Virus record (IMG/VR): IMGVR_UViG_3300047498_000057
Span: 1-20,748 of that record
Strand: one strand, 5' to 3'
From: a virus
Length of the DNA: 20,748 nucleotides
This document shows positions 6,449-14,644 of this stretch, piece after piece. The notes under the pieces are model-generated. The model saw only the letters and a list, made by a program, of their open reading frames with translations, made no database searches and was not told the origin of the DNA. The position numbers and the translations under genes were made by a program. Position 1 is the stretch's first letter; each line of letters opens with the position of its first letter.

Positions 6449-6781
6449 CTACAAATCCCAGGCAGCGTCGTACCAGTTGGCACCCGGCTCAGCAGCGGAC
6501 AGGAAGTCGAGGGCAGCGTCAGCCGAGTAGCATACAGCCACTATCGCACCAGCATCGCGGAGTTCGCGGATCCGCAGACGTTGTTGTGGGGATAGGACGC
6601 CGCCTGGCGCCTTGAATTCGACCCAGCGGATGGTGAATATGCCCTGAATAGACTTCCAGAACAGGCGGTCGGGAAGCCCGTTGGGGTTCTGCGAGAACGA
6701 GCTGGCGGCCATTTTGATTGACCGCCAGCCCTTCTTCTTCGCCTGCCGGCAGGCGTCAGCTTCGATCTTCGATTCGAGCAC
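6449..6781 (-). CDS. VRR-NUC domain nuclease
   Basis: Starting at a GTG at 6781 the product is 110 residues, the usual size for stand-alone phage VRR-NUC proteins. The opening LESKIEADACRQAKKKGW is the family's N-terminal helix. The PD-(D/E)xK-like core follows: GLPDR with D38, VEFKAPGG with E55 and K57, and LSPQQRLR with Q66/Q67, then a VAVCYS strand. VRR-NUC proteins are predicted Holliday-junction or flap nucleases in phage DNA processing. GGGGG lies five bases before the GTG and comes from the most decayed copy of the neighbouring repeat array, so the repeat seems to provide the ribosome-binding site. The frame stays open through the array to a TTG at 7090, but that extension is repeat sequence, not nuclease. 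Confidence 0.9.
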   Translation of the reverse strand: MLESKIEADACRQAKKKGWRSIKMAASSFSQNPNGLPDRLFWKSIQGIFTIRWVEFKAPGGVLSPQQRLRIRELRDAGAIVAVCYSADAALDFLSAAEPGANWYDAAWDL

Positions 6782-6863
6782 GAGAACCCCCACACATCGG
6801 GGGGCGAGTTTTGCCGCGACGACGGCATCGGCGCTGGTTTTTTTTCCGGACCCCCACAAATCA
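6781..6863 (-). repeat. Decayed CRISPR-like repeat units at the distal end of the array
   Basis: Two worn copies of the 36-bp unit lie here. Around 6781-6808 the core CCCCCACACATCGGGGGGCGAG survives in part but the ends have changed. At 6837-6863 a T-run followed by CCGGACCCCCACAAATC keeps the first two thirds of the unit and is cut off, joining directly to the next unit at 6864. The decay increases with distance from the insertion sequence, as in CRISPR arrays where the end far from the leader degenerates. The first copy lies directly upstream of the VRR-NUC start. Confidence 0.6.
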
Positions 6864-7159
6864 GTTTCCGTACCCCACAGATCAGGGGGCGAGTCTAACG
6901 AAAGCGAGTGCCAGGAGCAGTGGTGTTTTTCGTACCCCCACAAATCAGGGGCGGGCAAAACCGCCGAACGCAGGGCCACTTCCTCCCGGTCGTTTCCGGA
7001 CCCCCACAAATCGGGGGCGAGCAAAACGCGGTGGCTTTGCCAGGTCCATCCTTCGCAGTTTTCGAACCCCCACAAATCGGGGGCGAGCAAAACTTTCTAA
7101 TCACTGTCGGATTACCCCCGCACGTTTTCGTACCCCCACAAATCGGGGGCGAGCAAAAC
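6864..7159 (-). CRISPR. CRISPR-like array: 36-bp repeats with 30-bp unique spacers, no cas genes
   Basis: Repeat units lie at 7124-7159, 7058-7093, 6992-7027, 6926-6961 and (worn) 6864-6899. The first three agree at all but one to three bases near positions 5-8; on the minus strand the unit begins GTTTTGCTCGCCCCCGATTT and ends GTGGGGGTACGAAAAC. The spacers at 7094-7123, 7028-7057 and 6962-6991 are each exactly 30 bp and unrelated to each other; the next is about 26 bp. The unit has GTTT/AAAC ends and an inner CCCCC/GGGGG stem with a 7-base loop. Wear at the low-coordinate end implies reading on the minus strand, the operon's direction. The first unit is followed in frame by a stop (TAA in spacer 7094-7123), so conservation is not protein-driven. 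Alternatives are iterons or a repeat-mimic RNA. Confidence 0.6.
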
Positions 7160-7320
7160 CGGATCGCCGTTGGCTCTGAACCTCCCCATGGCTAAAGCCA
7201 GGGGGTTCTAGGGGTGCAAATGTCGTGCCTCTCCGGGGCTCTCGCTTGATCTGCTTTCGCAGGAGCTACAACATCCCCAGCCTCGGCTGGACGGCCATCC
7301 CCCTTCGACGAGCGACCCAC
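7160..7320 (-). ncRNA. Predicted TnpB omega RNA region with guide reaching the array edge
   Basis: In studied IS605-family elements the right end and the adjoining 3' part of tnpB are transcribed into an omega RNA, and the bases just outside the element act as the guide for TnpB. Here that region includes the right-end hairpin at 7184-7204. If the element ends at 7176, the guide would start with the 16 bases 7175-7160 on the minus strand and then run into the first CRISPR-like repeat at 7159. The limits are approximate and no transcript evidence exists; the call rests on family knowledge and position. Confidence 0.35.
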
Positions 7321-8766
7321 TCTGACGCACGGAACGTGGGGTTGGGCAGAGCCCTTCCCGCTTGCGGGTTGTAGCGCACTCGACATCGCTCGTCTCAGCA
7401 GCGGTTCCGCAGCCGGCCAGGCTTCTATAACCCGACAGATATCGAGGCTATCCGTATCGCAACAGGTGGCGAGGAACGCGCTGTAGAGATCACGCTGAAC
7501 CGATTCGGTCTTACCATCACCAAAAACATGAATCCGCTGTGACAGCGGCTTCTTCATATAGTTTCCGGTGGTGTGATCGAACTGACTCAGTCGTGTGTGC
7601 CGGGTTTTGATCTCGATCATTCCGCCGCCAGCGCCTTCCGCCTTGCGCCGAAGTGTCGAGACAAACATTCCCGGCGCGCGCACCTTGACGCTGCGACCGA
7701 AATTCTTCTGGAAAGACTTGTAGCTGAGTTTCTCCGTTTTGATGGTTGTTCCTTGGCCGAGCAAGCGGTTGGCGAGTTCGCCGTGCGACCGCTTGCGTTC
7801 GGATGCCAGTCGCCGATCACGTTCCCGCCGCTTGGCGGCGAGGATACGATAGCGGTTTGAGCGGTTCCACGTCTTGGTGCCTTTGTGGACACGCCCCTTG
7901 GCATCGAAATTCTTTGGGTTAGTAGCGCGGCGAGACCGATCCAAGGCCCGCAGCACACGCCGACTGGCCTTCCAGGGCTCGATGACTGTCGGGCAGAAGC
8001 CTTCCAGCGTGGCGTTGTCTGCCGATACGCTGGCGATTGTCGACGGTCCGATGTCGAGCCCGACCTCACCTGCAACAGTTTTTCGCGTCCGCGGCGCCTC
8101 ACCTTCCTGCACCAACTGGCAGAACCAGCGATCACGGCCGTTGATCTCGCGCCGAAGAACACGGACGTATTTCGTGCGCCGAGACAGAGCTTCGGCTTGC
8201 CATCCGCGCTTGTCCTTAGGGTCCAGCATGAGCGGCAGCACCAACCCCGCCCAGTGCACGACCGGAATCGGCTCGGCGCGATACCTAATCACCGCATCGC
8301 TTTTACCTTCGACGCTATGGAGACGTCGGAAGCCTTTGAAGCGAGGGCGGCCGCGCTTGCCGAAGGCGTATTGCTGCACCGCCTTGAAAGCTCGCAGACT
8401 GGTGGTTTGCGTGTCGTGGCTACCAAGATGCGCACCGATCCAGCAGGCATCCCTGCAAGTCTCGGCGAACTTCTGGATCGACACGGAGGAAAACTCGAAG
8501 CGGACTTGTGTGGCTTTGAACAGGTCCGACCGTTCTTTGTTGGGTATCGGTTTGCCTTCGGCGTTCTTCCCCAGGGTTTTCGGCATGGCTCGAGCACGTT
8601 GCCAATCCAAGCTTTCACGCATCAGACCCAAGCGCCGCAGCGATTCCCCGAGGCTGGCGTTATATACGTTGCGCGCCGCATCCAGCCTGATCGGCAAGAT
8701 GGCCTCGTCCGCCGCTGTGGTTTGTAGCGGAAATTCAGCTATGAAGGAGGGTGTTCCGCGCGGCAT
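7192..8766 (-). CDS. tnpB: TnpB RNA-guided nuclease-like protein of the insertion sequence
   Basis: The ATG at 8766 overlaps the tnpA stop (TGATG), giving 524 residues. The split RuvC core is intact: VGLDIG with D238, KTEKLSYKSF with E345 and VQRDLYSAFLA with D426. TnpB proteins are RNA-guided DNA nucleases, ancestral to Cas12, that help the element persist. The four-cysteine zinc finger usually placed between the last two motifs is absent: the stretch is SQFDHTTGNYMKKPLSQRIH and contains no cysteine. I recall a TnpB subgroup with this FDHTTG...KKPLSQR pattern and a long tail ending in RTPxL like the RTPWL here, so this looks like a subfamily trait, not damage. The 3' end of the gene overlaps the right-end hairpin, as expected for the omega RNA region. 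Confidence 0.94.
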   Translation of the reverse strand: MPRGTPSFIAEFPLQTTAADEAILPIRLDAARNVYNASLGESLRRLGLMRESLDWQRARAMPKTLGKNAEGKPIPNKERSDLFKATQVRFEFSSVSIQKFAETCRDACWIGAHLGSHDTQTTSLRAFKAVQQYAFGKRGRPRFKGFRRLHSVEGKSDAVIRYRAEPIPVVHWAGLVLPLMLDPKDKRGWQAEALSRRTKYVRVLRREINGRDRWFCQLVQEGEAPRTRKTVAGEVGLDIGPSTIASVSADNATLEGFCPTVIEPWKASRRVLRALDRSRRATNPKNFDAKGRVHKGTKTWNRSNRYRILAAKRRERDRRLASERKRSHGELANRLLGQGTTIKTEKLSYKSFQKNFGRSVKVRAPGMFVSTLRRKAEGAGGGMIEIKTRHTRLSQFDHTTGNYMKKPLSQRIHVFGDGKTESVQRDLYSAFLATCCDTDSLDICRVIEAWPAAEPLLRRAMSSALQPASGKGSAQPHVPCVRVGRSSKGDGRPAEAGDVVAPAKADQARAPERHDICTPRTPWL

Positions 8767-9161
8767 CAAACGTTCTTCTGGTTTACGATGTACTGTTTGA
8801 TCACGGATAGCGGCGCTCCACCAACCGTCGAGACAAAATAACTATTTGTCCAAAGCGTTGGGATGCGAGACCGCAAGGTCTGGAATTCCCGACGCAGGAC
8901 ATTCGAGCTACGGCCTTTAATCCCGCGCACCAAACGGTGAATCCCGAACTGGGGATCGCAATCAAGCAGCAGATGCACGTGATCCGGCATCACTTCCATC
9001 TCGATAAGGCCCGATTTCGTCTCGTCGCACACTTGCCGAACTATCTCTTTCAGTCGTTCATTTATCAGGGGTACCAGCACGGAACGTCTGTATTTCGGAC
9101 AAAACACCACATGGTATTTGCACGAAAAGAGCACGTTCCGGTTCGATCTGAAGTCCGACAT
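8766..9161 (-). CDS. tnpA: IS200/IS605 Y1 transposase TnpA
   Basis: This 131-residue protein, with its ATG at 9161, is a full-length single-strand transposase of the HUH/Y1 class. The HUH motif is in MPDHVHLLLDC (His-Val-His) and the nucleophilic tyrosine is in IKQYIVNQK near the C-terminus. The N-terminal CKYHVVFCPKYRR and the central LVRGIKGRSSNVLRREF are characteristic of the family. It cuts and rejoins single-stranded DNA at the hairpin-marked ends of the element. The gene is complete and directly coupled to tnpB, so the element may still be active. Confidence 0.96.
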   Translation of the reverse strand: MSDFRSNRNVLFSCKYHVVFCPKYRRSVLVPLINERLKEIVRQVCDETKSGLIEMEVMPDHVHLLLDCDPQFGIHRLVRGIKGRSSNVLRREFQTLRSRIPTLWTNSYFVSTVGGAPLSVIKQYIVNQKNV

Positions 9162-9245
9162 AAACGGTATATGGCACGGTTCCCTATAGCAAGCAAGAGG
9201 CGTTTACCCCATGGCTAAAGCCAGGGGCTTGCACGCCAATTTCGG

Positions 9246-9503
9246 TCAAGAGTGCACGCCGAGCCGCGCGCGCCGCCACGCGTCCATCCGGTCGGCGATC
9301 TCGAATGCTTCGGAGATCTGGTCCCGCTCGCCGGGCTGCCCGGGCCCCTCACGCTGTGGCCCGGGGATCTGCCGGCCAAGGTAGACGCTGTCGTGTCGCG
9401 CCCGGGCCCAGTCCCGCACCAGGTTCGGCGCGCTTGGGTCGCTGGCACGCAGGACAAACGTGGGCTCCTCGCCCTCCGGCATCGGCCGCTCCATGGTGCT
9501 CAT
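9246..9503 (-). CDS. 85-aa phage protein of unknown function
   Basis: The start at the ATG at 9503 is fixed by an ATGA overlap with the endolysin stop. The product is hydrophilic and begins MSTMERPMPEGEEPTF; then comes a region rich in Asp, Arg and Pro (APNLVRDWARARHDSVYLGR), a QREGPGQPGERDQI linker and a C-terminal helix (AFEIADRMDAWRRARLG). It has no signal peptide or membrane segment. Its place right after the endolysin could hint at lysis or morphogenesis, but I recognise no family. The insertion sequence starts 18 bases after the stop, leaving this gene intact. Confidence 0.7.
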   Translation of the reverse strand: MSTMERPMPEGEEPTFVLRASDPSAPNLVRDWARARHDSVYLGRQIPGPQREGPGQPGERDQISEAFEIADRMDAWRRARLGVHS

Positions 9504-9982
9504 GTCGTGCGCTCGATCGGTACGGCGCCAGGCGGGCTGTTCTGGATCATGGCGACCTCGTCCAACCGGCGGTTGAGCAGCCCCCGCACGGTCACGCCGC
9601 CGGCCCGGTCCCACAACACGAGCTGGTCCTGAGCGCCCTTGTAGTCGCCCGCGTTTAGCAGCGCCAGAAGGGTTGACCGTTTCAGGTTACCACTGCCAAC
9701 GTTGTAAACGAAGTCCTCGAGCGCGGCCAGCCAGCCACGGGTCAGAGGCACGCGGACGTCCTGCTCGATGGTGCGCGCACACTCCGCGAGCTCGCAGGCG
9801 ACGAAGTGGTCGGCGACCGCCTCGGTGACGGGCGCCGTGCCGGGCCCGACGGGCGTGGGCGGTGTGGCGCGCCAGTCGCGGGTAGACCCCTTGCCGATGG
9901 TCCAAACGCCGCCGCTGTCCTGGTAGGGCGTGCTCGACATCCCCTCCCACTTGCCAACCTCAGCCGTCGCGTCGTCGCTCAT
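9500..9982 (-). CDS. Endolysin, GH24 lysozyme (T4 lysozyme type)
   Basis: This 160-residue muramidase would cut the beta-1,4 bond between N-acetylmuramic acid and N-acetylglucosamine in the host cell wall. The GH24 catalytic triad spacing (Glu, eight residues, Asp, five residues, Thr) is present: E13 in KWEGM, D22 in YQDSGG and T28 in VWTIGKG. A later ALEDFVYNVGSGNLKRSTLL segment matches the family's C-terminal lobe. There is no N-terminal signal or SAR anchor, so export should need a holin; a 60-residue membrane protein two genes upstream is the candidate. It is coupled by ATGA overlaps to the methyltransferase before it and the 85-residue gene after it. Confidence 0.93.
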   Translation of the reverse strand: MSDDATAEVGKWEGMSSTPYQDSGGVWTIGKGSTRDWRATPPTPVGPGTAPVTEAVADHFVACELAECARTIEQDVRVPLTRGWLAALEDFVYNVGSGNLKRSTLLALLNAGDYKGAQDQLVLWDRAGGVTVRGLLNRRLDEVAMIQNSPPGAVPIERTT

Positions 9983-10611
9983 AGCGATATCCCCTGTAAT
10001 GCGCGCGCCAGCCGCTGCTGCGCGGTGTCAGCCCTCACGTAGGCGTCCTGGAGGCCTGCCGGCAGCGAGGCCTTCCCCAGCCATCCTGGAGGCTCTGGCG
10101 GCCGTCTGCCGTCCCACACAAACCAGGCGTAGTCGATGCAGCCGCGACCGCCGTCCGGCTTATCGTCGGACCCGTCCCACAGCGTCGGCCTGTGGGAGAA
10201 GATCCATACCTTCGAGATAGGGATCTTCTCCCACAGGCTGAGCCGGCGCTTCTCGCCGCTGAGAAACCCCAGCCGGAGAAGCATCGCGGTCTTGACCGCG
10301 CCCAGCCTGATCGCGTGGTGGACGAATTCGTCTGCGTGCAAAAACGGCGGGTTGGTCACGATGGTCGGCGCGCGCAGGCTGGTGCTGGCCAGGAAGTCGA
10401 CGCCATGCTCGCCGTAGCCACGGTCGATGAGGTCGGTCGAGACGACCCGGTGGCCATCAGCCAGAAGGACTCTGGAGATTGCCCCGTCGCCACACGCCGG
10501 CTCCCAGATCGGCCCCTCGAACTGCTCGACGGACAACAAACTGCGAACACAGTCCGACGGCGTGCGGTAGAAGTCGTGGGCCTCGCGCGGTCTCGGGTTA
10601 CGCTTGTTCAT
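9979..10611 (-). CDS. DNA N6-adenine-type methyltransferase (NPPF class)
   Basis: Starting at the ATG at 10611 the protein has 210 residues. It opens with DFYRTPSDCV, common in this phage group. The SAM-binding motif EPACGDG lies at 37-43, an acidic residue for SAM binding is D60 in STDLIDRG, and the catalytic motif is TNPPF (86-90), the amino-methyltransferase signature usually linked to N6-adenine. A WIFSHRPTLWDGSDDK region and a YAWFVWDG strand follow. No restriction enzyme gene is next to it, so it is probably an orphan enzyme that protects phage DNA. It overlaps the upstream 60-residue gene by 14 bases and the endolysin by 4 (ATGA). Target sequence and methylated base are not evident. 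Confidence 0.85.
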   Translation of the reverse strand: MNKRNPRPREAHDFYRTPSDCVRSLLSVEQFEGPIWEPACGDGAISRVLLADGHRVVSTDLIDRGYGEHGVDFLASTSLRAPTIVTNPPFLHADEFVHHAIRLGAVKTAMLLRLGFLSGEKRRLSLWEKIPISKVWIFSHRPTLWDGSDDKPDGGRGCIDYAWFVWDGRRPPEPPGWLGKASLPAGLQDAYVRADTAQQRLARALQGISL

Positions 10612-10780
10612 TCTGCCGCATTTCACGGGTCAGGTGATCGACGAGGTCAGCCACTGTCTTGCGCGTTCTGACGGCACGCTCGACCCGGCGCATCGCCATC
10701 CGGTATCCGATGGTCGCGCCGATGTAAGCGCTTGCGAATGCGACTAAGCCACAAACGATGTCAATCAGCAGATACTGCAT
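10598..10780 (-). CDS. Small one-helix membrane protein, candidate holin
   Basis: This 60-residue protein (ATG at 10780) starts with one hydrophobic helix, about residues 3-27 (LLIDIVCGLVAFASAYIGAT, then IGYRM), with Gly residues spaced as in helix-packing motifs. A strongly basic, then mixed-charge tail follows (RRVERAVRTRKTVADLVDHL). One transmembrane segment and a charged tail close to an endolysin lacking its own signal fits a small holin or an Rz-like inner-membrane spanin, but a single helix is weak evidence and another membrane role is possible. It overlaps the 70-residue gene by 20 bases and the methyltransferase by 14. Confidence 0.6.
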   Translation of the reverse strand: MQYLLIDIVCGLVAFASAYIGATIGYRMAMRRVERAVRTRKTVADLVDHLTREMRQNEQA

Positions 10781-10973
10781 CTTCGCCCTCGACTAACAAA
10801 TCGATTGCCGTCACCTCGGCTGCCGCCGCGTCGGCTTGCTTGGCCAGCCGTTCCAGATGCTCCAGTTCCTGGGCCAGCCGCCGTCGTGCCATGACCACCA
10901 CGCCAGCCTGGTCAACGACGACCCGGCAAGCGATCGCTGCCCGCAACCGATAGTCGATTTGAACGGGTCTCAT
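10761..10973 (-). CDS. 70-aa protein of unknown function
   Basis: The ATG at 10973 forms an ATGA overlap with the stop of the DPPY methyltransferase, which supports it as a real gene. The sequence has an N-terminal part rich in Arg, Val and Ala, then a likely amphipathic helix or short coiled coil (RRLAQELEHLERLAKQADAA), and an acidic end (DLLVEGEDAVSAD). There is no signal peptide or transmembrane segment, and I recognise no family. Confidence 0.62.
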   Translation of the reverse strand: MRPVQIDYRLRAAIACRVVVDQAGVVVMARRRLAQELEHLERLAKQADAAAAEVTAIDLLVEGEDAVSAD

Positions 10974-11539
10974 TTGCGGCGAAACACTGTCACGAAACGA
11001 AACCTATGGTTGGTGCTTTTGACTACGCCAATACGGCATTCGATATCCCACGTATCTTTCTTATACATCGGTAATACTTGGTCAAGCCAGACGACATGCG
11101 TCCCAGGCAAGCAGCGGGACAGAGCCCGGAACACCTTCGACCGGGAGATCATCGCCGGACCGTAGTGCTCTGCGTCTTCGACAGAATACGGTGGATCGCA
11201 GAGGATAAGATCGTAGTGCTGGAGCGGCACTTTGGCGAGCGTCTGCGCGTCGTCGAGAAAGGTCGGCCAGTTATCTATGTCGGCATCGACAGTGTCTCCG
11301 GGCATCTCGACCAGATCGACCTGTCCGCTAAACACGTGCAGGACATTGGTCTTTTCCGGAAACAGGGCTTTGATCCGGCGCAAATAGGTCGGCGGATAGC
11401 CGCCGTACAGGCCCGAAGCAACTTTGTATGAGTTGCCCATGACCCACACGCCGAACACGACGCCGTCCTCACCCATCGCCATGGCGACCGGGAATTTCGA
11501 CTGGGCCCGGTAGGCCTCGATCCGTTCCTCCCAGTTCAA
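10970..11539 (-). CDS. DPPY-type DNA methyltransferase
   Basis: The start is a TTG at 11539, overlapping the previous stop as TTGA and preceded by GGGAG eight bases upstream; this gives 189 residues. It has the class I fold signature: NVLHVFSG (65-72) as a short SAM-binding loop, VDADIDNWP near 84-92 as the acidic motif II, and LILCDPPYS with DPPY at 115-118 as the catalytic motif. Later strands are GTHVVWLDQVLPMY and FRFVTVFRRK. DPPY enzymes methylate the amino group of adenine or cytosine. This is the second methyltransferase in the operon and differs clearly from the NPPF one. Without a partner nuclease it most likely modifies phage DNA. Specificity is unknown. Confidence 0.8.
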   Translation of the reverse strand: MNWEERIEAYRAQSKFPVAMAMGEDGVVFGVWVMGNSYKVASGLYGGYPPTYLRRIKALFPEKTNVLHVFSGQVDLVEMPGDTVDADIDNWPTFLDDAQTLAKVPLQHYDLILCDPPYSVEDAEHYGPAMISRSKVFRALSRCLPGTHVVWLDQVLPMYKKDTWDIECRIGVVKSTNHRFRFVTVFRRK

Positions 11540-11802
11540 AATGGAATCTCCCGCTCGGAAATCTTAACACCCTTACACTTGTACACTTGGTACAGTGCCA
11601 CCGCGAGCTCATCCCTCGCGACCATGTTTTCCACGATTTTTGTCGTCAAAACCGCGTCCTCGAAGTGCGCTTCGACCAAGATCTCGCGCAGCATGTGCCG
11701 CGCAGGGCTGAATGGAATCACACTCGCGAAAGACTGGTACACAGTCTCGCGCGTGGGCGCGCCCAGGCGCGGCTGAAAACCGTAGGACCTAGCCACGGTC
11801 AA
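11536..11802 (-). CDS. 88-aa protein of unknown function
   Basis: The start is either TTG at 11802 or GTG at 11796; the two are close and neither has a strong ribosome-binding site (GAGAGA lies just upstream). The product is a mixed-charge, probably helical protein with PFSPARHMLREILVEAHFED and IVENMVARDELAVALYQVYK as predicted helices and a basic KCKGVKISEREIPF end. No membrane segment or known motif is visible. It is coupled to the methyltransferase by a TTGA overlap and overlaps the preceding gene by 8-14 bases. Confidence 0.65.
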   Translation of the reverse strand: MTVARSYGFQPRLGAPTRETVYQSFASVIPFSPARHMLREILVEAHFEDAVLTTKIVENMVARDELAVALYQVYKCKGVKISEREIPF

Positions 11803-12022
11803 ATCTCTCGAGCGCGAGTGTCAGATGTCCGCGCGCCCGCCGGTTACGCTCGTTTGCTTCCGCGATCCGCGCGAGGAACCTGCCCAATGTCATCAGAAAC
11901 AGAAGGGCCGGCGGCGTCATCTGGGAGATGTCATCAGCGAACCCCTCGACCAGTGCGGTCATCCCCTCTTCATCGTCCACAATACCCTCGACCAGTGTGG
12001 TCATCCCCTCTTCATCGTCCAC
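11789..12022 (-). CDS. 77-aa protein with an internal 14-residue tandem duplication
   Basis: The GTG at 12022 is preceded by TGGAGG six bases upstream, the clearest ribosome-binding site in this stretch, so it is chosen over longer frames. The N-terminus holds the unit VDDEEGMTxLVEG twice in tandem, then a degenerate third start (FADD). The rest is a hydrophobic helix (ALLFLMTLGRFLARIAEA) and a basic end (NERNRRARGHLTLALERF). The hydrophobic part is too short and amphipathic for a confident membrane call. It overlaps the 116-residue gene by 11 bases. I recognise no family. Confidence 0.66.
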   Translation of the reverse strand: MDDEEGMTTLVEGIVDDEEGMTALVEGFADDISQMTPPALLFLMTLGRFLARIAEANERNRRARGHLTLALERFDRG

Positions 12023-12026
12023 AATA
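11943..12026 (-). repeat. 42-bp tandem direct repeat, two copies
   Basis: Copies at 11943-11984 and 11985-12026 are nearly identical (for example CCCTCGACCAGTGCGGTCAT against CCCTCGACCAGTGTGGTCAT). The period of 42 is a multiple of three and duplicates 14 codons at the 5' end of the 77-residue gene. One copy also covers its start codon and the end of the upstream gene, so the duplication arose around a translation start junction. Near-identity suggests a recent event. Confidence 0.85.
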
Positions 12027-12362
12027 TGCCTCCAGGGCTGTCGTGAGATCGACCCGCGCGTGCTCCAGCTCCACGAGCGCACGCTGTGCGGCCGGCGTGT
12101 AACTCACGGACGCGATCCCGGCACTGCTGTGCTTGCCGAGCGCGCGCGACATCATATTGAATAGGGCGGCCGCCAGTGCGTCCTGTGCAGTATTCGCGTC
12201 GGCAAACTCATGAAAGATCGTTCGGACCTGATCGCGATCCTCAGTTGTCACCCGCAGGTTCGCGCGCCACATCCCGTCCTGTAGCTGAAACAGATTGTTG
12301 ATCGACCAGCCACGTTCGGCTATTTCAGCCACCATACTGTCGAGCGTGCGGTTAGTGTTCAT
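12012..12362 (-). CDS. 116-aa protein of unknown function
   Basis: The ATG at 12362 is used; longer frames upstream cover the preceding gene. The protein begins MNTNRTLDSMVAEIAERGWS, has a NLFQLQDGMWRANLRVTTED strand-turn-strand region and then helices (AQDALAAALFNMMSRALGK and AAQRALVELEHARVDLTTAL). The N-terminal half looks like a small alpha/beta fold seen in short phage proteins beside polymerase genes, but no function is known to me. It overlaps both the preceding gene (11 bases) and the next one (11 bases). Confidence 0.7.
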   Translation of the reverse strand: MNTNRTLDSMVAEIAERGWSINNLFQLQDGMWRANLRVTTEDRDQVRTIFHEFADANTAQDALAAALFNMMSRALGKHSSAGIASVSYTPAAQRALVELEHARVDLTTALEAYCGR

Positions 12363-12585
12363 CGTGCAGCGCCACGACGGGTTCGTCGAGCCCGGCGGAA
12401 TGACCATCCAAGTCGAGGCAATACTGGCGGCCTTCCGTAAGGCGGATTTCCGTGAACTGGCCGATTTCGATGAGCGTTTTTTGATGCGCACGAGCTTGCT
12501 CCCGACTGTCCCAGCCCACCTCGATCCGCGTCCGGAAACCATCCTGCTCATGTACATACGTAACGACGTAAGGGTGTGATAGCAT
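12352..12585 (-). CDS. 77-aa protein of unknown function
   Basis: The ATG at 12585 lies four bases after the polymerase stop, with AAGGA placed about seven bases before it. The product has a beta-strand start (HPYVVTYVHEQDGFRTRIEV), a helix (SREQARAHQKTLIEIG) and another strand (FTEIRLTEG), giving a small alpha/beta protein with a His/Asp/Glu-rich end. No membrane segment, cysteine cluster or known motif is visible. Placement immediately after the polymerase suggests a replication accessory, which is inference only. Confidence 0.7.
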   Translation of the reverse strand: MLSHPYVVTYVHEQDGFRTRIEVGWDSREQARAHQKTLIEIGQFTEIRLTEGRQYCLDLDGHSAGLDEPVVALHDEH

Positions 12586-12589
12586 AACG

Positions 12590-14644
12590 TCAGTCCTTGC
12601 GGTAATACGATCCCGTCCAGCCGGCGGCGCCCAGCGGCAACCCCGGCATACCTTGCACCGGGGCCGAGAGGTGGTTGATAAGACGCTCCAAGGTGAAGTA
12701 GTTTCCGCCTCGTCTATGAGTAGTAATGGCTTCGTCGTGTACGTGTCCGACAAGATAAAACGAATCATTATGAGCACGCAGCATACCGGAAACAAGCACA
12801 TCCCGAGCAGCAGCTTGTACGGCATTCTCTGTCGTTTTGCCGCCATGACTGTCTATCCTCACCCAGCGATGTTTTGCATCTAAGCCCATGTGCGTGAGGA
12901 CATACTTCTCGTATGTTTCTACCTCGTCGTAATAGACGCCGGCCGCGGTCATCTTGCGCACGAGACGGCCAGTCGAGATAATCCGTTTCTGCATCTGTGG
13001 TTCGTAATAGAATATCGGGCGACCCGTCGGGAGCCACATCAAAAGAAACGGCTTACGCCGCTCGAAGCGAAGATGACCACACTGCACGGGCTCACCTGTC
13101 CGCATGCACTGGAGTATTGCGCGTTCTTGAGCGACCCACATGGCGGGGATTTCGGGATAAGTCTCCCGCCAGAGCTTGACGGCCTTGTGCGCGTCCTCTC
13201 TAGTCATGTTGACCCCCATTGCTTCCGCGTAGCCCCACAAGCCGGTACGCTTATCCAGTTTCGACTCTCCGCCACCTAGACGAAACCCGCAGCCGAGCGT
13301 CGGCGGTTTGCAGAACTTCCGCATCCACTTTTCGACTGCTTCGTAAAGCACCCGGAAGAAGACACTGGCAAAATCCATGTAAGGATCCTTGCCGCTCCTG
13401 AAGATCTCCAGCAAACGCGGACAGTTGGCCAGCCACGCTATGACGGCGGATTCAATCGATTTCAGGTCGGCGACCACGAATTCCAGGCCGTCCTCGACCC
13501 GGAAGGCGCTTCGAACAGTCCCGACAAGGCCAGCCATGGGCTCCATCATGAAGAGCTTGAGCGCTTCATAGTCACCAACCCGGACGATGCGCGTTAATTC
13601 GTCCAGGAGCGCGTCGTTGTCGAAGCCAGCCGGCCGCCCGGACAGGTTCTGTGTTTGGACTTTTCTGCCAGCCCAGCGACCCGTGCGGCCGGCGCCAGCC
13701 ATCTGGAAGAGGAATCGCATCCGGCTGTCGGCGCCGACGGACGCGAGAATCGCGTCATATTTCTTCACCGACGTGCGGGCTTGCCACTGCCGCAGCCGAA
13801 GAACCGCTTTGCACTCATCAGTGAGAGTGCCTTCGGCGAGCTCCTTGGTGACTGTATCCTTCCTCAAATCGCCAAACCGGTATCCTCGCTCTTGCAGCCA
13901 CGGCAGAAGCTGCTGGACCGATCCGGGATTCACCAAGCCGGTCAGTTCCGACATCTGCTCCGTCAGCTCAGCCTTCCGGCGCGCCGACATTGTAATAGCG
14001 TTACGAACGAACGTTAGGTCAACCGGCTTACCCCTGTCATTGATCGTTTGATCCATCTCGTAGACTTCGACAAGTTCGCGTTCTGGGACAGGGTAGGGGG
14101 CCAGTCGAATCCTGATCGCCCTCTCAGCAATGACGTCCTGAATGTTGTATTGACAGAACGTTTCCCAGTCTTCGGGATCTGTCGTCCAGTCGCGCCAGAC
14201 GTGCGGGTTGGCTTTTGTTGGCTTCTGCGGCATGGAGAACTGCCGGATGAGCCTCTTGCCCTCCTTATCCTTCGTCTTGTCGGCCGGGATTCCCATCGCT
14301 GAGCCGACGGCGTCCAGGCCGCCGCTGAAGCTCATCAGATAAGAATTGACCATCGTGCACCGCCAGCCCCTGACGGGCGAAGGAATCCCAGCCACGCGGT
14401 TCGTCGTCACCCGCTCAAATTGGGCGTTGAAGGCCATCTTGATGACGTCGGGGTCTTCTAGCGCCTCCACGAGCTCAACAGGCATGGGGCCGTCGCGCGC
14501 CTGCCAATGCTCGACTTTCCCGCCGTCGAACGCGTAGGCGGCCATGAGCACCCTCGTGGACGGATCAGCCGAATAGCGGTCGAGGCCTGCCGTCAACAGG
14601 TTGACGTCGCTGGCCGTCTCGTAGTCGAGCTCACAAGTCGCCAA
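12590..14644 (-). CDS. DNA polymerase, family A (Pol I-like) with 3'-5' exonuclease
   Basis: A TTG at 14644 with GGGAGG six bases upstream gives 684 residues starting right at the exonuclease motif; an ATG at 14707 would add 21 residues overlapping the previous gene. Exonuclease residues are D7 and E9 in CELDYETASD, with FNAQFER and YNIQDV as later exo motifs. In the polymerase domain RTGRWAG sits near 320-326, motif A is VVADLKSIESAVIAWLA with D393, a motif B-like region is RKFCKPPTLGCGFRLGGG, and motif C is HDE (636-638). It would be the phage replicative polymerase. There is no 5'-3' exonuclease domain. Motif A has Leu-Lys where phage relatives commonly show Phe/Tyr/Leu-Ser; the catalytic Asp is kept. 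Confidence 0.96.
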   Translation of the reverse strand: MATCELDYETASDVNLLTAGLDRYSADPSTRVLMAAYAFDGGKVEHWQARDGPMPVELVEALEDPDVIKMAFNAQFERVTTNRVAGIPSPVRGWRCTMVNSYLMSFSGGLDAVGSAMGIPADKTKDKEGKRLIRQFSMPQKPTKANPHVWRDWTTDPEDWETFCQYNIQDVIAERAIRIRLAPYPVPERELVEVYEMDQTINDRGKPVDLTFVRNAITMSARRKAELTEQMSELTGLVNPGSVQQLLPWLQERGYRFGDLRKDTVTKELAEGTLTDECKAVLRLRQWQARTSVKKYDAILASVGADSRMRFLFQMAGAGRTGRWAGRKVQTQNLSGRPAGFDNDALLDELTRIVRVGDYEALKLFMMEPMAGLVGTVRSAFRVEDGLEFVVADLKSIESAVIAWLANCPRLLEIFRSGKDPYMDFASVFFRVLYEAVEKWMRKFCKPPTLGCGFRLGGGESKLDKRTGLWGYAEAMGVNMTREDAHKAVKLWRETYPEIPAMWVAQERAILQCMRTGEPVQCGHLRFERRKPFLLMWLPTGRPIFYYEPQMQKRIISTGRLVRKMTAAGVYYDEVETYEKYVLTHMGLDAKHRWVRIDSHGGKTTENAVQAAARDVLVSGMLRAHNDSFYLVGHVHDEAITTHRRGGNYFTLERLINHLSAPVQGMPGLPLGAAGWTGSYYRKD

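Follow-up and report, generated by a model that had tools for sequence, protein, structure and literature searches.

A replication operon in the stretch of phage DNA analyzed here, a virus record of 20,748 bases (the window), contains four good and three degraded repeat units whose anatomy is very probably that of a CRISPR array. The likeliest explanation is a captured, leaderless mini-array of host type, which would be read from the minus strand as part of the phage operon and either be used through host Cas proteins or already be in decay.

The window is a genome fragment of a siphovirus (tailed phage) of the Nazgul/Casjensviridae-like kind. Its core genes code for primase, DUF2800 exonuclease, single-strand binding protein, DNA polymerase A, VRR-NUC, SNF2 helicase, TerS and TerL; TerL shares 54 to 56% identity with the proteins of BcepNazgul and its kin, and the helicase up to 45%. 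As the genomes of these related phages measure 56 to 62 kb, the window covers roughly one third of the genome. The features of the array and its surroundings are collected in Table 1. The GTG at 6781 is probably the start of VRR-NUC, and the start sites of the relatives' VRR-NUC genes correspond to it.

Table 1. Repeat units, spacers and neighboring features (positions in the window; u1 is the reference unit)
Feature	Position	Strand	Details
VRR-NUC endonuclease gene, phage replication operon	6449..6781	-	GTG start; Pfam PF08774, E=2e-12
Degraded repeat unit u7	~6778..6811	-	stem core kept; overlaps VRR-NUC start
Spacer-like piece 5	6811..6841	-	
Truncated repeat unit u6	~6842..6862	-	3' half only; directly joined to u5
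Degraded repeat unit u5	6864..6899	-	edit distance 7 from u1
Spacer-like piece 4	6900..6925	-	~26 nt, shortened
Repeat unit u4	6926..6961	-	3 differences vs u1
Spacer 3	6962..6991	-	30 nt; GACCGGGAGGAAGTGGCCCTGCGTTCGGCG
Repeat unit u3	6992..7027	-	2 differences vs u1
Spacer 2	7028..7057	-	30 nt; TGCGAAGGATGGACCTGGCAAAGCCACCGC
Repeat unit u2	7058..7093	-	1 difference vs u1
Spacer 1	7094..7123	-	30 nt; GTGCGGGGGTAATCCGACAGTGATTAGAAA
Repeat unit u1	7124..7159	-	IS-proximal, reference; GTTTTGCTCGCCCCCGATTTGTGGGGGTACGAAAAC
IS200/IS605 element	7177..9222	-	ends approximate; inserted next to the array and separate from it
tnpB	7192-8769	-	guided TnpB NF040570, below curated cut-off
tnpA	8766-9161	-	Y1 transposase
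Phage gene, 85 aa	9246..9503	-	upstream of the array before IS insertion; no match in family searches

The four well-kept units are 36-nt direct repeats at spacings of exactly 66, 66 and 66 nt, with pairwise identities of 86 to 97%; they are separated by three unrelated 30-nt spacers (mutual identity 13 to 43%). None of 100 Markov-shuffled windows contained even three 10-mers at CRISPR-like spacing. Near-identical repeats are separated by unrelated spacers of equal length, as in CRISPR arrays, and the set also has the polarity of such arrays, with homogeneous repeats at one end and degenerate repeats at the other. The edit distance from u1 grows stepwise with distance (0, 1, 2, 3 and 7, then two remnants). 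The degraded units lie at spacings of approximately 62 to 63, 21 to 22 and 61 to 64 nt, the junction of u5 and u6 lacking about 44 nt relative to the 66-nt period, and u7 was recovered weakly by a five-unit covariance model (15.1 bits, E=0.08). The coordinates, identities and shuffles thus bear out the preliminary description, which had reported four 36-bp units at a 66-bp period, three unrelated 30-bp spacers, and decayed units at shifted spacings of about 62, 22 and 64; its reading of the anatomy as CRISPR is supported by the constant repeats, the unrelated spacers of constant length and the trailer-type decay. On the minus strand, the unit is predicted to fold into a stem-loop (-13.5 kcal/mol, z -2.3), and the whole array folds no better than shuffled sequences (z -0.8).

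The repeat decay toward 6778 marks the trailer end, from which we infer a minus-strand reading of the array, in the same direction as the phage genes on either side. Differences near the 3' end are present even among the best units, which argues that the array is not freshly maintained. No match to a sigma-70-type promoter was detected near the array, and there is no leader next to the first repeat. With the left end of the IS placed by eye at ~9222-9235 and the end of the upstream phage gene at 9246, the distance between gene and array before the insertion comes to about 30 to 40 nt. The array had indeed been described as leaderless and as lying 35 to 40 bases behind a phage gene, and both the setting and the approximate gap agree with our analysis.

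Alignment to two Skermanella copies placed the right end of the IS at ~7177, about 17 nt from u1; past this end, both copies continue into unrelated DNA devoid of an array. An array linked to TnpB (type V-U-like) was rejected on these grounds: the IS200/IS605 element formed by tnpB and tnpA is an ordinary one, its right end falls short of the array, and the Skermanella copies share that end with no array alongside. The IS inserted later, upstream of the array, and is a neighbor of the array and not its owner. These Skermanella copies are only 66 to 67% identical to the element, and an attempt to infer the host from the IS gave no informative matches in 385 Alphaproteobacteria.

In the window, the slot between DNA polymerase and VRR-NUC holds several accessory genes, then the IS, then the array. 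The gene order is DNA polymerase, VRR-NUC, helicase in BcepNazgul and likewise in AXY1, and in L009, L011 and L030 other genes, chiefly methyltransferases, precede VRR-NUC. The array is absent from this slot in all five phages. As the slot contains either nothing or other accessory genes in these relatives, the array represents an acquired accessory insert.

No cas gene was found when the main genes of the 20.7-kb fragment were scanned with PADLOC, Pfam and PHROGs; only TnpB scored weakly, against Cas12f/Cas12u models. As the fragment represents roughly a third of a 56- to 62-kb phage, the description of the array as cas-less is valid for these 20.7 kb but does not extend to the whole phage.

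The repeat and the spacers were searched for in host, phage and plasmid sequences, as the preliminary description had suggested. No host array with a matching repeat was found in 84,980 species genomes with degenerate patterns of 24 and 17 fixed bases, and pattern searches of viral contigs, phages and plasmids revealed no matching array either. The covariance model recovered all good units in the window, but among 385 Alphaproteobacteria, one alphaproteobacterial order (391 genomes) and 369 Gammaproteobacteria it detected no array (~1,145 genomes in all, the samples possibly overlapping and the class labels relying on the titles of the center contigs). Several candidates were discarded: the 17-base pattern matched 11 genome contigs, all at single sites and none in an array; weak matches of the covariance model in four genomes were single sites with no periodic repeats; and the exact core CCCCCACAAATCGGGGG occurred in seven viral contigs, six of them with one common unrelated context and one with a lone palindrome, none with an array. 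An Rfam search returned nothing relevant, and the repeat strings were not found in published papers. The spacers, including spacer 3, had no match in phages and only two weak, chance-level matches in plasmids (E 2-8); exact 19-nt cores of spacers 1 and 2 were absent from IMG/VR viral contigs, and comparison of the spacers with the rest of the window for self-targeting gave short chance matches only. These negative results are weak, because the host is not identified, arrays assemble poorly from metagenomes, and the patterns permit no mismatch at fixed positions. With neither a host array nor a credible spacer target found, the use of host Cas proteins or an anti-CRISPR action, both proposed earlier, was not supported; the use of the array is therefore unproven and its function inferred.

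Mini-arrays of one or two spacers that are carried by viruses exploit host Cas proteins against rival viruses, and those of phages, which have no leaders, were proposed to originate from recombination with host arrays (PMC6858448; phage mini-arrays are reviewed in PMC11656645). Like those of SPV1/SPV2 and of phages, the array described here combines CRISPR repeats with unique spacers in a virus, has no cas genes nearby and lacks a leader. In contrast to them, it has three intact spacers plus remnants, is strongly decayed, and has no host array of the same repeat or spacer target found. It fits best with this group of virus-borne mini-arrays, although it is longer and decayed. As phage mini-arrays are already known, it represents a further, unusually long and decayed example. 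Vibrio phage ICP1 also carries an array, but as part of a full system, whereas no cas gene was seen on the present fragment. Arrays without cas genes in phages offer a way to study conflict between phages and the capture of pieces of host immunity by phages; the present one is longer than the mini-arrays described and displays stages of decay, and it provides a concrete 36-nt repeat with which its host and CRISPR type may be found.

With regard to type, repeats of 36 nt and spacers of about 30 nt are found in class 2 arrays (types II, V and VI), the lengths being the same as here, but the fragment contains no effector gene. The C5/G5 stem-loop followed by ACGAAAAC presumably resembles the layout of type VI-A repeats, which we take as a lead only. 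A Nazgul-like phage with a multi-spacer cas-less array, read from its replication operon and with a repeat unseen in sequenced hosts, that borrows a class 2 effector of the host (possibly Cas13-like) against rival phages appears unlikely.

The most likely explanation, capture from a host, can be laid out as follows. Recombination with a host CRISPR array would have brought the array into the phage; its transcription would be that of the operon, from the minus strand, 7159 being the leader end and VRR-NUC lying at the trailer end; and host Cas proteins would process the transcript into crRNAs against competing elements. Its present state would be that of a partly decayed array, which the IS now separates from the upstream phage genes. 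The exact 66-nt period, the monotonic decay, the stem-loop of the unit, the absence of the array from relatives and the published precedents argue for this explanation, whereas the lack of a host array, of a spacer target and of a leader or promoter and the differences between units at their 3' ends count against it. In its full form, with a leaderless, cas-less, host-derived array giving a Nazgul-like phage crRNAs against competitors by way of host Cas proteins and now being partly decayed, we judge it to have about an even chance of being right.

A serious rival to function, if a rather unlikely one, is a non-functional fossil: part of a host array would have been captured by chance, would have ended up in the accessory slot and would now be eroding through mutations, deletions and the IS insertion. 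The degradation of three of the seven units, the deletion between u5 and u6, the absence of a leader or promoter, the IS inserted alongside and the differences among even the better units are all consistent with it. However, the four IS-proximal units have retained their high identity and exact 30-nt spacing, and a functionless piece would be expected to be lost quickly from a compact phage genome.

The repeats might instead act as an RNA anti-CRISPR, as decoy repeat RNAs that occupy crRNA-processing or effector proteins of the host. Phage repeat mimics of this sort, the Racrs, are established as solitary repeat units (PMC10651486); they resemble the present array in being phage-encoded, CRISPR-repeat-like RNAs from an accessory region with no cas genes, and imperfect repeats would fit a dominant-negative RNA. 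We nevertheless consider this explanation improbable, as a Racr is a single unit and the array has at least four regularly spaced units with proper spacers, and no host system was identified.

Still less probable are DNA-binding iterons or another structural DNA or RNA element of the phage, such as an origin or a regulatory leader of VRR-NUC. In favor of such an element, the units are imperfectly palindromic, lie in a replication operon and stop where VRR-NUC starts, and the GGGGG arm of u7 (6778-6811), approximately 6 nt before the GTG, may act as its ribosome-binding site. However, iterons do not show a pattern of unrelated, constant-length spacers with decay of the trailer type, and relatives have the same operon devoid of the units.

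The frame of VRR-NUC runs without a stop between 7090 and 6449, across several units, and 66 is divisible by 3, as would suit an N-terminal extension of VRR-NUC made of VLLAPDLWGYEN motifs and 10 variable residues; stop codons interrupt it between u1 and u2, the differences among u1 to u4 are mostly non-synonymous with conserved wobble bases, and VRR-NUC starts in relatives at the place of the GTG, so that such a peptide repeat was rejected as hardly credible. The stops, the non-synonymous changes and the kept wobble bases together argue that the constraint acts on nucleotides, and they confirm the earlier remark that in-frame stops beyond the IS-proximal unit prevent coding from explaining the repeats. 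Between 6842 and 6930, the deletions separating degraded units preserve the reading frame, whose openness is probably due to chance.

Some minor observations concern the neighborhood of the array. In TnpB (525 aa), RuvC-like D/E/D motifs can be made out by eye, but the CxxC zinc-finger cysteines that most TnpBs carry are missing from their usual place; its relatives are on Skermanella plasmids, annotated as hypothetical proteins. The accessory genes at 9246-12557, inside the replication operon, include a lysozyme/endolysin, two DNA methyltransferase-like genes and several small unknown genes. Finally, an open frame of 164 aa at 12352-12846 on the minus strand overlaps the end of the DNA polymerase gene and the next gene.
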